In this document: piece after piece, positions 35,152 to 38,873 of the stretch
Layout: every line of letters begins with the position of its first letter
How positions within the stretch are numbered: the first letter of the stretch is position 1
Assembly (NCBI GenBank): GCA_019694875.1
Contig: JAIBBC010000001.1
Location: 1,309,501-1,373,500, forward strand
DNA length: 64,000 nucleotides
Reading direction: 5' to 3'
Origin: Cyclobacteriaceae bacterium
GTDB taxonomy: Bacteria > Bacteroidota > Bacteroidia > Cytophagales > Cyclobacteriaceae
Made by a program: the position numbers and the translations under genes
The notes under the pieces: model-generated
What the model was told of the DNA's origin: nothing
Database searches by the model: none
The model's input: the letters and a program-made list of their open reading frames with translations, nothing else

Positions 35152-36243
35152 TTGCCGGTGGAGAAAAACAAAAATTTGTACGTAGTGCTAATGGCAGGCG
35201 GGGTAGGTGTGAGGTTTTGGCCCTACAGTCGTAACTCGATGCCCAAGCAGTTTCTGGATGTTCTTGGAACAGGTAAAACACTGTTGCGTTCGACCTACGA
35301 AAGGTTTTTATCGATTTGCCTTCCCGAAAACATTTATGCCGTAACCAATCAGGAGCACGCACACCTCGTACGGCAACAGATACCGGAGATGAATCCGGAG
35401 CAGATTCTGGCAGAGCCGATGCGAAAGAACACCGCACCGTGCATTGCGTATGCGAGTTATCGCATCAACAAGCTGAATAAAGATGCAGTGATTGTAGTCA
35501 GTCCTGCTGATCACCTCATTTTGAAAGAAGAAGAATTCCGCGAGATTATTTTAAAGGCAGCCGACATTGCAAAAACGCAAGACAAGCTGTTGACACTCGG
35601 CATTACGCCCACGCGCCCGGAAACCGGTTACGGATACATCCAGTTTATTCCGGACAAGAAAGTGGCCAAGAAGGTTAAGACCTTTACGGAAAAACCCGAG
35701 TTGTCGCTGGCCAAGAAATTTTTAGAGAGCGGTGACTTCGTATGGAACTCCGGAATTTTTATCTGGGGAGTTCAGGCAATTATCAAGTCGCTCGAAGAAC
35801 ACCAGATGGAAATGGCGGAAGTTTTTGAAGAGTGTGTCCCGGCATTGGGAACTCCGGCAGAAGCAGAAGCAGTTGAGAATGCATACGCTCAGTGTAAAAG
35901 TGTTTCCATCGATTATGGAATCATGGAAAAGGCAACGAATGTTTTTGTTTGCCTCGGAAATTTTACGTGGAGCGATTTGGGTTCGTGGAGTTCCATCCAT
36001 GAACTTTCCTCGAAAGACAGTCATAATAATTCGGTAACCGGAAAAACACTTCTGTACGATACGCGCAACTCCATCATCCGTTCCGATACGCCCGGCAAGC
36101 TCATCGTTGCACAGGGATTAAACGGTTATCTCGTAGCCGAATTCGGAAACGTCATCATTGTATGTGAAAAAGATAAAGAAGATCAATTCCGCAAGTTTGT
36201 AACCGATCTGAAGGCGATGCAAGGCGGGGGAGAGTTTCTTTAA
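35152..36243 (+). CDS. manC: Mannose-1-phosphate guanylyltransferase
   Basis: A 363-residue enzyme making GDP-mannose from GTP and mannose-1-phosphate. Seen: VVLMAGGVGVRFWPYSRNSMPKQ (nucleotide-binding loop), VVSPADHLI (metal), ETGYGYIQ, FTEKP, FVWNSGIFIW, and DYGIMEKA. It lacks the C-terminal phosphomannose isomerase domain, as is usual in this phylum. The start is TTG 35152 or GTG 35158; both are weak. A second, short copy of its 3' end is found at 37362-37409. It supplies precursor for the glycan cluster at 44.6-57.8 kb and for mannose or fucose sugars elsewhere. Confidence 0.93.
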   Translation: MPVEKNKNLYVVLMAGGVGVRFWPYSRNSMPKQFLDVLGTGKTLLRSTYERFLSICLPENIYAVTNQEHAHLVRQQIPEMNPEQILAEPMRKNTAPCIAYASYRINKLNKDAVIVVSPADHLILKEEEFREIILKAADIAKTQDKLLTLGITPTRPETGYGYIQFIPDKKVAKKVKTFTEKPELSLAKKFLESGDFVWNSGIFIWGVQAIIKSLEEHQMEMAEVFEECVPALGTPAEAEAVENAYAQCKSVSIDYGIMEKATNVFVCLGNFTWSDLGSWSSIHELSSKDSHNNSVTGKTLLYDTRNSIIRSDTPGKLIVAQGLNGYLVAEFGNVIIVCEKDKEDQFRKFVTDLKAMQGGGEFL

Positions 36244-36273
36244 TTTCATACTTAAGAACCCTTATAACTATAT

Positions 36274-37275
36274 ATGAAAAAATTTAGTGCAGTTTGTTTA
36301 GTGATTTTAGCGTTTACAACTTTTGTTTCTTGTGGTGACGATGAAAATTCTGTGAGTATTCCGAAAGTGACAACGGGTGAGATTACCGATGTGACAGAAT
36401 CTTCTGTTCATATCTCGGCTGAAATCTCAGACAATGGTAATGCCAAGATAATAGAGCGAGGATTTGTTTATAGCAGTGTGGTGAGTGAGCCAACGCTTAT
36501 TAACGAAAAGGTCGTGTCTGAAGATACTGAGAATGTTTTCAATAGCATGCTTGACGAACTTGAGCCTGAAACCACTTATCACATAAGAGCCTATGCAACA
36601 AATAAGAGAGGTACCGGCTATGGCGAAAGTATATCTTTTACAACCGAAAAACCTGGGCCAACAACCAATGGCTTGGTTGCCTACTACAATTTTGAGGATA
36701 ATACAAATGATCAGTTTGGAAACAATGATGCTGTGCCGGGAGGTGGCGCCATGTTAACGTATTCATTTGTCAATGAATTGCGCGAAAAGGCAGTTAATTT
36801 TTCTGTTGCTGACGCAAATTATGCAGTTATTGACAATACCTTCGATTTTGAGAATAAGACCATTTGCTTTTGGGTTAAGGCCGATGTTATTACCGACAAT
36901 ATTATGGTCCCTTTTGTATCGGATAACCCGAATAAACAATTTGGACTTGTAGGGATGTACGTCATGCGGGATGCAGGCCAGAAGGTTTTTCTTCTTAACG
37001 TAGGCGGCAATCCAGTGACCTTTCCTGCAACGGAAGGAGTCTGGTATCATATCACTATGGTCGGTGCGGCAAAATCTTACAAATACTACATTAATGGATC
37101 GTTAATGGCTCAAGGAACTTTTGACACATACCTGAAGTCATCCAACGGTGTTGAAGATACGATTATTGGATCGTCAAGAATTTTTAATCTTTTCTTTTCG
37201 GGGTCGATGGATAACTTAAGAATTTATAGCAGAGCATTGAGTGCTGAGGAAATTGCAATTATTGCTTCTTATTAA
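36274..37275 (+). CDS. LamG-type lipoprotein with an fibronectin-like N-terminal part
   Basis: Encodes 333 residues. Lipoprotein signal with FVSCGDD; residues about 30-130 form a beta domain with the fibronectin III-like YHIRAYATNKRGTGYGESISFTT ending; about 140-333 are a concanavalin-like LamG/laminin G fold (GLVAYYNFEDNTNDQFGNND ... KYYINGSLMAQGTF ... MDNLRIYSRALSAEEI). Such proteins bind surface or external polysaccharides. The next gene but one at 37444 encodes a shorter paralogue without the middle domain. No TAnnTTTG box is visible in the 30-nt gap before it, so it may be read from the manC transcript. Confidence 0.85.
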   Translation: MKKFSAVCLVILAFTTFVSCGDDENSVSIPKVTTGEITDVTESSVHISAEISDNGNAKIIERGFVYSSVVSEPTLINEKVVSEDTENVFNSMLDELEPETTYHIRAYATNKRGTGYGESISFTTEKPGPTTNGLVAYYNFEDNTNDQFGNNDAVPGGGAMLTYSFVNELREKAVNFSVADANYAVIDNTFDFENKTICFWVKADVITDNIMVPFVSDNPNKQFGLVGMYVMRDAGQKVFLLNVGGNPVTFPATEGVWYHITMVGAAKSYKYYINGSLMAQGTFDTYLKSSNGVEDTIIGSSRIFNLFFSGSMDNLRIYSRALSAEEIAIIASY

Positions 37276-37277
37276 AG

Positions 37278-37361
37278 AGTTTTTTCTGGCGCACCACTTC
37301 ATAAATGGCAACACCGGTTGCGAATGAAACATTTAACGATTCGATTTTCCCTTTATTGGAA
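37278..37361 (-). pseudogene. Fossil 3' end of a second rlmB
   Basis: On the minus strand it reads KGKIESLNVSFATGVAIYE VVRQ, matching the end of RlmB (RGKIESLNVSVATGVAVYE VVRQ). Of the 24 compared codons, 8 differ silently and 3 change the residue. The upstream (5') part is missing: the match ends near 37361, where frame is lost within a few bases. It lies exactly downstream of the first LamG gene, as intact rlmB lies downstream of the second. Not a functional gene. Confidence 0.85.
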
Positions 37362-37409
37362 TTTGTCATCGATCTGAAGGCGATGAAAGGCGGGGAAGAG
37401 CTTCTTTAA
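37362..37409 (+). pseudogene. Fossil 3' end of a second manC
   Basis: Reads FVIDLKAMKGGEELL stop, matching the end of ManC, FVTDLKAMQGGGEFL stop, including the stop codon. Sixteen codons: four change residues and one is silent. It joins the rlmB fossil directly at a shared TTTG and stands 34 nt before the second LamG gene, just as intact manC stands 30 nt before the first. Confidence 0.85.
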
Positions 37410-37412
37410 GTT

Positions 37413-37420
37413 TACCTTTG
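37413..37420 (+). promoter_or_regulatory. -7 box of the second LamG lipoprotein promoter
   Basis: TACCTTTG, a full TAnnTTTG match, 23 nt before the ATG. The corresponding position before the first LamG gene lacks a full match. Confidence 0.55.
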
Positions 37421-37443
37421 TCTTTTGTAATTATTAAACATCT

Positions 37444-38136
37444 ATGAAAAGAATTTGTTTATCCAGCTTCATTATTTTAGTAACTATTTTTTCGTGCTCC
37501 GAGAACGATAATAAAGACAATGATCTTCAAGCTCCTTCAGACGGCCTGGTTGCCTACTACAATTTTAACGGAAATTCGCTGGACCGTGAAGGATCAAACG
37601 ATGGTACGGATACCAATGTCACCTATACGTTTAGGGATGATGAGAATAAGGAGGCTGCTCATTTTGCTGGCGATAATAGCTTTGTTGACCTCCCGGATGA
37701 TTTTGATTTCGAGGATAAAACAATTGCATTAAGTTTTTCAGCTGAAAGTATATCTCCTACACGTTCAGTGCTCTACGGTTCAGATCATAACAATTTGGAA
37801 TTTGGACTGACTGTTATGACTTTAATTGACAATGGCGGGAATAAAACCCTTGATTTAAACGTATCCAATGAAGTAGTGTCGATACCTGTATCGGAGAACA
37901 CATGGTACAATGTGATTATGATCTCAGACAGCAAAACCTACCGGTATTATGTTAACGGAACATTAGTTGGCTCGGGGACATTCGCGAATTACATCCATTC
38001 AGGGAATGGAGACGCGTTTGCAACGATCGGTCGCGCAAGAGTTCCAGTTCTCTTTTATGATGGACTGGTCGATAACGTGAGAATATATAACCGTGCTTTG
38101 ACTGAAGAAGAGGTGGAGATACTAGCGGACTTTTAA
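37444..38136 (+). CDS. LamG-type lipoprotein, shorter paralogue
   Basis: Encodes 230 residues. Lipoprotein signal (FSCSEND), then directly the LamG-like domain: GLVAYYNFNGNSLDREGSNDG, HFAGDNSFVDLPDDFDFEDKTIALSF, YRYYVNGTLVGSGTF, LVDNVRIYNRALTEEEVEI. It aligns with the C-terminal two thirds of the protein at 36274-37275 and lacks that protein's fibronectin-like region. Its stop overlaps the stop of convergent rlmB by 3 nt. The two copies arose with the duplication recorded by the fossil junction between them. Confidence 0.87.
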   Translation: MKRICLSSFIILVTIFSCSENDNKDNDLQAPSDGLVAYYNFNGNSLDREGSNDGTDTNVTYTFRDDENKEAAHFAGDNSFVDLPDDFDFEDKTIALSFSAESISPTRSVLYGSDHNNLEFGLTVMTLIDNGGNKTLDLNVSNEVVSIPVSENTWYNVIMISDSKTYRYYVNGTLVGSGTFANYIHSGNGDAFATIGRARVPVLFYDGLVDNVRIYNRALTEEEVEILADF

Positions 38137-38873
38137 ATGAGTTTCTGACGTACCACCTCATAAACCGCAACACCCGTAGCCACCGAAACATTTAACGATT
38201 CGATTTTTCCTCTCATGGGAATTTTGACGAGCACATCAGACTCCCGTAACAAGAAGTCTGAAATCCCGTCTTCTTCCGATCCCATGATCAATGCTACCGG
38301 CTGGTCAAATTTTACTTCGTAAATATCTTTCTCGGCTTTTTCGGTGCAGGCAACTACCATGATACCGTTGTCGCGAAGAAATTTTAACGTCTTCTTCAAA
38401 TCCGGCTCACGACAAACGGGTAAATGATTTAACGCACCTGCAGAGGTTTTCATGGCATCGCTCGTGATGGGTGCATTGCCCTTGTCGCCAATAATGATCC
38501 CGGTAACTCCGGCACACTCTGCTGTGCGGGCTATGGCCCCGAAATTTCGGACATCGGTTACCCGGTCAAGCACAATAAAGAAGGGTTCGCGACCCTCCGA
38601 ATAAGCAAAATCAATCAAGTCATTAACCTGTGAATAGCTGATGGCCGAGAGCATGCACACCACGCCCTGGTGATTTTTCGTGGTTAATCGATTTAGTTTT
38701 TCCTGGGGTACGTACGTAATGGGTACGTTATGTTCGCGTGCAACACCTGTGAGTTCGCGAATCAGATCATTGTTTAATCCGGTTTGAACAAGAATTTTTT
38801 CGATTTGCTTGCCGGCACGGATCGCTTCAATAACCGCGCGTGTGCCATAAATCATGTCGGTGTTGGAAATCAT
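38133..38873 (-). CDS. rlmB: 23S rRNA (guanosine-2'-O)-methyltransferase RlmB-like
   Basis: A 246-residue SpoU-type (SPOUT) methyltransferase. N-terminal L30e-like domain (YGTRAVIEAIRAG) then FFIVLDRVTDVRNFGAIARTAECAG (motif 1), ALIMGSEEDGISDFLL (motif 2) and IPMRGKIESLNVSVATGVAVYE (motif 3, trefoil knot). It methylates a ribose in 23S rRNA (G2251 in E. coli). The gene is single and intact; a 3' fossil copy lies at 37278-37361. Confidence 0.93.
   Translation of the reverse strand: MISNTDMIYGTRAVIEAIRAGKQIEKILVQTGLNNDLIRELTGVAREHNVPITYVPQEKLNRLTTKNHQGVVCMLSAISYSQVNDLIDFAYSEGREPFFIVLDRVTDVRNFGAIARTAECAGVTGIIIGDKGNAPITSDAMKTSAGALNHLPVCREPDLKKTLKFLRDNGIMVVACTEKAEKDIYEVKFDQPVALIMGSEEDGISDFLLRESDVLVKIPMRGKIESLNVSVATGVAVYEVVRQKLI

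Follow-up and report, generated by a model that had tools for sequence, protein, structure and literature searches.

Introduction

How can the space between two adjacent lipoprotein genes come to hold the ends of the two genes that flank the pair? The question is raised by a locus of a Cyclobacteriaceae bacterium, contained in a 64,000-nt stretch of DNA (hereafter, the window) that belongs to a 4.68-Mb genome in 5 contigs. Based on open reading frames and Pfam matches, the gene order is recQ (−; named by eye from the sequence), a kpsF-like gene (+), manC (+), LamG1 (+), LamG2 (+), and rlmB (−), with the rlmB stop codon overlapping that of LamG2. The two LamG genes, the only large plus-strand frames with a family match between manC and rlmB, are separated by a 168-bp gap. 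Within it lies a 128-base stretch made of the leftover ends of both neighboring genes, rlmB and manC, referred to here as rlmB' and manC' (Table 1).

The intact manC has an orthologue of 95% amino acid identity in the congener G002, the nearest relative in the comparison, used throughout as a reference for divergence. LamG1 carries an extra fn3-like region relative to LamG2, matched at 3.1e-4 and 21.3 bits, below the Pfam cut-off of 25, and its lipoprotein signal was judged by eye. A search of positions 36150-38300 found no terminator-like site.

Illegitimate, additive integration of DNA from relatives is best known from laboratory selection. If the locus arose in this way, one small scar reveals both how closely related the donor was and how long ago the join formed, and it records how a one-gene slot may become a two-gene slot without losing either flanking gene.

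Table 1. Coordinates of the genes, gene ends, and join at the manC-rlmB locus, in positions of the window.
Feature	Position	Strand	Evidence
manC, mannose-1-phosphate guanylyltransferase, intact left flank	35152-36243	+	Pfam NTP_transferase 1.2e-39
LamG1, probable lipoprotein, fn3-like and Laminin_G_3 domains, 333 aa	36274-37275	+	PF13385 8.7e-21; ORF
LamG1 3' end, contiguous with rlmB' in the alignment to the LamG2 3' end (38071-38136)	37210-37275	+	73% over 157 columns, E 5e-17
rlmB' fossil, second rlmB 3' end, one-base deletion	37283-37364 (82 nt)	−	83%, E 2.8e-17
rlmB'/manC' join, 3-nt overlap TTT	37362-37364		Sequence
manC' fossil, second manC end: last 15 codons and stop	37362-37410 (49 nt)	+	90% over 48 nt, E 1.4e-11
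LamG2, probable lipoprotein, Laminin_G_3 domain, 230 aa	37444-38136	+	PF13385 6.6e-21
rlmB, SpoU-family rRNA 2'-O-methyltransferase, intact right flank	38133-38873	−	PF00588 1.5e-41, PF08032 3.5e-19; ORF

Two Fossil Gene Ends and Their Join

A sequence-only reading of the window had placed second 3' ends of rlmB and manC between the LamG genes, and both are recovered far beyond chance when the segment 37279-37410 is used as a query against the whole 4.68-Mb genome, which is the search behind the fossil E-values in Table 1. In a self-comparison of the window, the two fossil pairs are the only repeat pairs reported at E ≤ 1e-4. The novel joint, rlmB'/manC', unites non-homologous sequences across a 3-nt overlap. 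The same reading had located the break at a shared TTTG (37362-37365) and taken it as a sign of short-homology joining. An overlap is indeed present, but the bases common to both parents are TTT and not TTTG, since intact rlmB carries a fourth T at that position, leaving the G to manC alone. Since at least 3 shared bases have a ~5% chance of occurring at a random join (assuming equal base frequencies), the overlap is weak evidence of microhomology joining.

Opposite Substitution Signatures in rlmB' and manC'

The two fossils differ from their intact counterparts in opposite ways. Aligned to intact rlmB, rlmB' shows 13 substitutions in 77 bases, distributed 2/1/10 over the three codon positions, and one deleted base. 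Once this deletion is placed, 25 of the 26 codons are comparable, with 9 silent changes, 3 replacements, and 1 gapped codon; the earlier count of 8 silent and 3 replacement changes in 24 codons is therefore right for the replacements and slightly low for the other two figures. manC', on the other hand, carries 5 substitutions in 48 bases, at codon positions 2/2/1, and changes the residue in 4 of 16 codons, exactly as first counted, with 1 silent change. Fourfold sites are identical to the intact gene in 5 of 13 cases for rlmB' and in 5 of 6 for manC', whereas positions 1 and 2 differ at 3 of 50 sites in rlmB' and at 4 of 32 in manC'. For comparison, the whole genes of this genome and G002 are identical at 43 of 107 fourfold sites in rlmB and at 66 of 146 in manC; in fossil-length segments, the corresponding values are 8 of 14 and 4 of 7.

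Judged by these sites, the two rlmB ends are about as diverged as the genes of two species, and coding constraint acted for most of that time. This pattern, with mainly silent differences, supports the proposal that purifying selection acted on rlmB' before the cut. manC' looks like a native manC copy that has been drifting: it is 90% identical to the manC of its own genome, compared to 77% for G002 and 79% for the next best match, G008. The sequence-only reading held that fossils grouping with the intact copies of this genome at near-identity would speak against a foreign donor; manC' does group with the intact copy, although 90% falls short of near-identity. The implied common history of the two fossils does not survive the comparison, as manC' looks native and rlmB' looks foreign. 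The differences within the rlmB segment number 13 between rlmB' and this genome, 15 between rlmB' and G002, and 13 between this genome and G002. Because these three sequences form a near star, no donor can be named, and the best description of the source of rlmB' is a relative roughly as distant as G002.

A Likelihood Model for the Age of the Fossils

The contrast was formalized in a model where fourfold sites diverge on both branches, while positions 1 and 2 change on the fossil branch mainly after the join; sites are independent, and the form is simply binomial. The likelihood is 1.4e-5 for a single native duplication, 1.5e-3 when manC' arises at the join but rlmB' is taken to be older, and 4.2e-4 when both fossils are equally old. 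Over 12 settings of alignment and constraint, the older-rlmB' model gains 2.9 to 5.5 units of lnL over the single duplication, and of 1000 parametric bootstrap replicates under single duplication, run in the main setting, 3 attain a statistic as large as the observed one. Both results favor the locus of a diverged relative over a recent native tandem duplication, as had been argued from the sequence. The latter is expected to leave all duplicated parts equally diverged, and they are not.

At an omega of 0.03, the model with both fossils equally old is 3.6 times less likely than the preferred one. With the constraint at 0.1, it comes near the preferred model in two of four alignments, is equal to it in another (gains of 3.74 for the preferred model and 3.73 for the equally old one), and is slightly better in the remaining one, which is 1 of the 12 settings (3.35 versus 3.06). 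The fitted depth, in substitutions per silent site per branch, is about 0.1 for manC' and about 0.5-0.6 for rlmB' and LamG, values that are lower bounds because silent sites are near saturation. The whole argument is carried by ~130 fossil bases.

LamG1 and LamG2 as Probable Alleles of One Slot

The similarity continues from rlmB' into the last 66 bases of LamG1, generating an alignment of 37210-37364 with 38071-38224 (73%) that runs through the last LamG codons and stop into the stop region and end of rlmB. Because this homology crosses the LamG-rlmB boundary, both LamG copies have one common LamG/rlmB junction, which two independent insertions would hardly share. Together with the two fossils and their order, the junction upholds the original idea that a manC-LamG-rlmB segment joined another version of itself.

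The LamG genes themselves are 54% identical at the nucleotide level, agree at 12 of 30 fourfold sites, and encode proteins of 40% identity (92 of 230 aligned residues). Their depth, near 0.6, is like that of the rlmB pair and far above the ~0.1 allowed by manC'. Among 196 family genomes, LamG1 and LamG2 are mutual best matches, at about 147 and 149 bits, followed by matches of 85 bits for LamG1 (in its fn3-like part) and 99 bits for LamG2. In a phylogenetic tree of 25 LamG domains (loci L066-L103 minus L079; hits of at least 150 aligned positions, reduced from 29 to 25 by dropping identical rows), they are sisters with a support of 99/98, in a bootstrap that is not fully settled. Since they are mutual best matches and sisters with a common LamG/rlmB junction, LamG1 and LamG2 look like diverged alleles of one ancestral LamG gene, that is, versions of the gene of one slot.

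A 33-nt block found at the start of both LamG domains (36670-36702 versus 37543-37575) is 85% identical, in genes mostly near 50%; it may be a short tract of gene conversion or a motif under strong conservation.

The manC-rlmB Gap in Related Genomes

We compared this locus in 17 genomes of the genus, including the present one. manC adjoins rlmB in 15 of them, and LamG genes lie in between only here; the other two, G009 and G012, have a best rlmB match at the level of a paralogue (E about 3e-24). Measured between the ends of protein matches, the gap is ≤ 50 bp in 8 of the 15 genomes, 109 bp in G006, 174 bp in G002, and > 1 kb in five: this genome, G004, G007, G010, and G011. The last four carry unrelated cargo. 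In G004 it consists of an ABC ATPase, a hydrophobic protein (by eye a permease), a small HTH protein, and one protein that no Pfam family matches; G007 has a beta-barrel protein of the outer membrane plus a small protein, G010 a protein with a GAF domain, and G011 a response-regulator/AraC-type protein. Because of this varied cargo in four congeners, the convergent manC/rlmB gap behaves as a variable slot. The cargo-bearing gaps lie at L038:5208-8120, L036:6458-8204, L042:4411-6544, and L185:3780-4799.

No match to LamG was found at this site in the 14 other genus genomes, and none of the 14 has a second intact manC or rlmB there; such a copy would have counted against a foreign donor in the sequence-only reading. 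Likewise, fossil manC or rlmB ends were found in 0 of the 6 other genomes whose gap is ≥ 90 bp (best E 0.014, over 12 nt). The 174-bp gap of G002 gave no convincing match to the window or to Pfam; it is open in one frame with hydrophobic stretches (L032:8821-8991) and is perhaps what remains of another cargo gene.

Two smaller features of these loci concern the flanking genes. In G016, G015, and G008 (L040, L041, L043), the RlmB C-terminus reads IRNS, encoded by short repeats of the ACGAATT type, through which the protein has apparently been extended. The kpsF-like neighbor is matched only partly or weakly in G007, G001, G015, G010, and G011 (L036, L037, L041, L042, L185), which suggests that the gene was truncated or replaced beside manC in those five congeners.

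The search for a donor, or for a locus still in the single-LamG state, was extended beyond this site. A donor was not found by fossil DNA in the 17 genus genomes, this one included, or by the LamG1 3' end joined to rlmB' in 390 family genomes. The LamG1 and LamG2 proteins retrieved no single-LamG locus from 196 family genomes each, 6 of them of this genus, and of the 80 loci kept from an RlmB scan of species-representative contigs, the 18 examined (L104-L121) contained no LamG match at E 1e-4. Thus, neither an only-LamG1 nor an only-LamG2 state of this site was found in the genomes searched.

A Proposed Additive Exchange and Its Alternatives

The explanation that we favor, and consider rather probable, is an additive integration of LamG-rlmB' DNA from a relative, by one homologous crossover and one end-joining. 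The recipient would have started as manC-LamG2-rlmB, and DNA from a related lineage, bearing the same slot with LamG1 beside its own rlmB, would have entered the cell. On one side, homologous recombination would have occurred at the manC end or the LamG start; on the other, the donor rlmB 3' end would have been joined without real homology, at the 3-nt overlap, into the 3' end of the recipient manC. The product, manC-LamG1-rlmB'/manC'-LamG2-rlmB, would hold both alleles in the slot instead of one, with both flanking genes intact because only their duplicated ends were cut. Two routes could lead there: (a) end-to-end closure of a donor fragment, giving a circle of some 1.2 kb that integrated through one crossover, or (b) homology-facilitated illegitimate recombination (HFIR) involving the sister chromosome.

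The direction, with LamG1 as newcomer, as well as the route, the uptake of DNA, and the occurrence of a single event, are what we infer. That LamG1 is the newcomer has moderate evidence in sequence, because manC' is native-like; that the added DNA came from another lineage is indicated, in a model built on ~130 bases, by a silent divergence of rlmB' like that seen between species, together with its conserved replacement sites. The two manC ends are ~90% alike, their alignment stops 2-3 nt after the stop codon, and the crossover point could not be placed. With a crossover farther upstream in manC, the donor would be expected to have supplied the intact manC end; given the closeness of manC' to that end, the crossover would need to have been very near the manC end. 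Neither intact manC nor intact rlmB shows a mosaic break that could be placed. In this genome, proteins of the ComEC, DprA, and Ku families are matched above cut-off (the ComEC and DprA profiles also match 10 and 11 of 14 control genomes), and homologues of this kind would permit DNA uptake and end joining.

The closest competitor, which we regard as unlikely, begins with a native tandem duplication of manC'-LamG-rlmB' at the short overlap, after which ordinary homologous recombination with DNA from a relative replaced one of the LamG-rlmB units, the right-hand one, which includes the intact 3' end of rlmB, being the easiest candidate. Such a history would produce an identical layout, with a native manC' set against a diverged rlmB pair, and PMC5361080 describes homologous recombination in other species as orders of magnitude commoner than illegitimate recombination, but it requires two events. 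Toward its 3' end, the intact rlmB reaches its lowest identity to G002 (73% at 38200-38299; 76.7, 80.0, and 72.2% in the last three windows of that comparison), a possible sign that the newcomer is the intact end, yet its distances to other congeners show no matching shift there. Additive exchange in the reverse direction, with LamG1-rlmB' native and manC'-LamG2-rlmB 3' end from a donor, seems to us quite doubtful. It would fit the symmetry of the layout, and in most settings the model in which the fossils have the same age equals the preferred one or falls only slightly behind it. However, manC' agrees with the intact manC at 5 of 6 fourfold sites, and its identity to the other genomes compared does not exceed 79%, below the 90% to its own.

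We hold it very improbable that a recent native tandem duplication by unequal crossover was simply followed by drift of the fossils and fast evolution of LamG. This scenario has the simplest layout and would account for the 3-nt overlap at the join, but the rlmB' differences are mainly silent, and the depth at LamG silent sites far exceeds what manC' permits; when modeled, it was disfavored, with an 18- to 250-fold lower likelihood across the 12 settings. Integrative elements can duplicate gene 3' ends, and a mobile element with an attachment site in a gene 3' end could in principle have integrated here and left displaced gene ends. Direct manC-end repeats flank LamG1-rlmB' (36196-36246 and 37362-37412), and four congeners hold other cargo in the same gap, but such flanking repeats are expected from additive exchange too. 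Moreover, the repeat units are the exact coding ends of two different genes fused together, the slot holds no large plus-strand frame with a family match besides the LamG genes, and the six other genomes with a gap ≥ 90 bp lack fossil ends, so that we give this origin hardly any credence.

Relation to Known Systems

It is tempting, though doubtful on present evidence, to see the manC/rlmB gap as a standing exchange slot, with the gene ends serving as homology anchors and rival lipoprotein alleles being collected by failed replacement. If this is true, Bacteroidota lipoprotein arrays grow by the accident proposed for Vibrio immunity-gene arrays, and fused ends of flanking genes are a readable clock of each addition. 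No description of fused flanking-gene ends was found in the open-licence PMC literature, judged from titles and abstract openings.

In E. coli, 56 of 60 clones examined by PCR had a partial duplication of the target after circularized DNA had integrated through one crossover (PMC3240628). The present locus is alike in that self-closing DNA would produce a partial duplication of a homologous target, although the E. coli system is a laboratory conjugation with a plasmid, and here we deal with an inferred natural event between diverged lineages. HFIR (PMC3240628, PMC2884548) resembles the proposed event in combining one homologous and one illegitimate end; in its strict form, it was rare in the E. 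coli study and was predicted to delete the target (PMC3240628). Because recipient sequence is duplicated here and not deleted, a sister chromosome or a circle is needed. The same mechanism has been proposed for small variable segments in E. coli (PMC2884548). In Streptococcus pneumoniae, donor DNA promotes tandem duplication through interchromatid integration, giving merodiploids (PMC3784515); these events are mainly repeat-mediated and about 100-900 kb in size, as opposed to about 1.2 kb and a non-homologous join here, and small duplications without flanking repeats are mentioned in the same source.

A parallel in layout is found with the effector-immunity arrays of the Vibrio T6SS, where a new allele is added before the old one and older parts are retained, as proposed here, and where the authors liken the mechanism of module addition to HFIR (PMC5361080, PMC9711863). 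In the Vibrio arrays, the old effector is displaced, whereas both LamG genes stay open, and the remnants at the present locus are, unlike those in Vibrio, the ends of flanking genes on both sides of the join. The mechanism itself is familiar from laboratory work and from the proposals made for Vibrio T6SS arrays, and the scar described here is most simply read as a well-preserved natural example of it, particular in that the ends of both flanking genes survive side by side with opposite substitution signatures.
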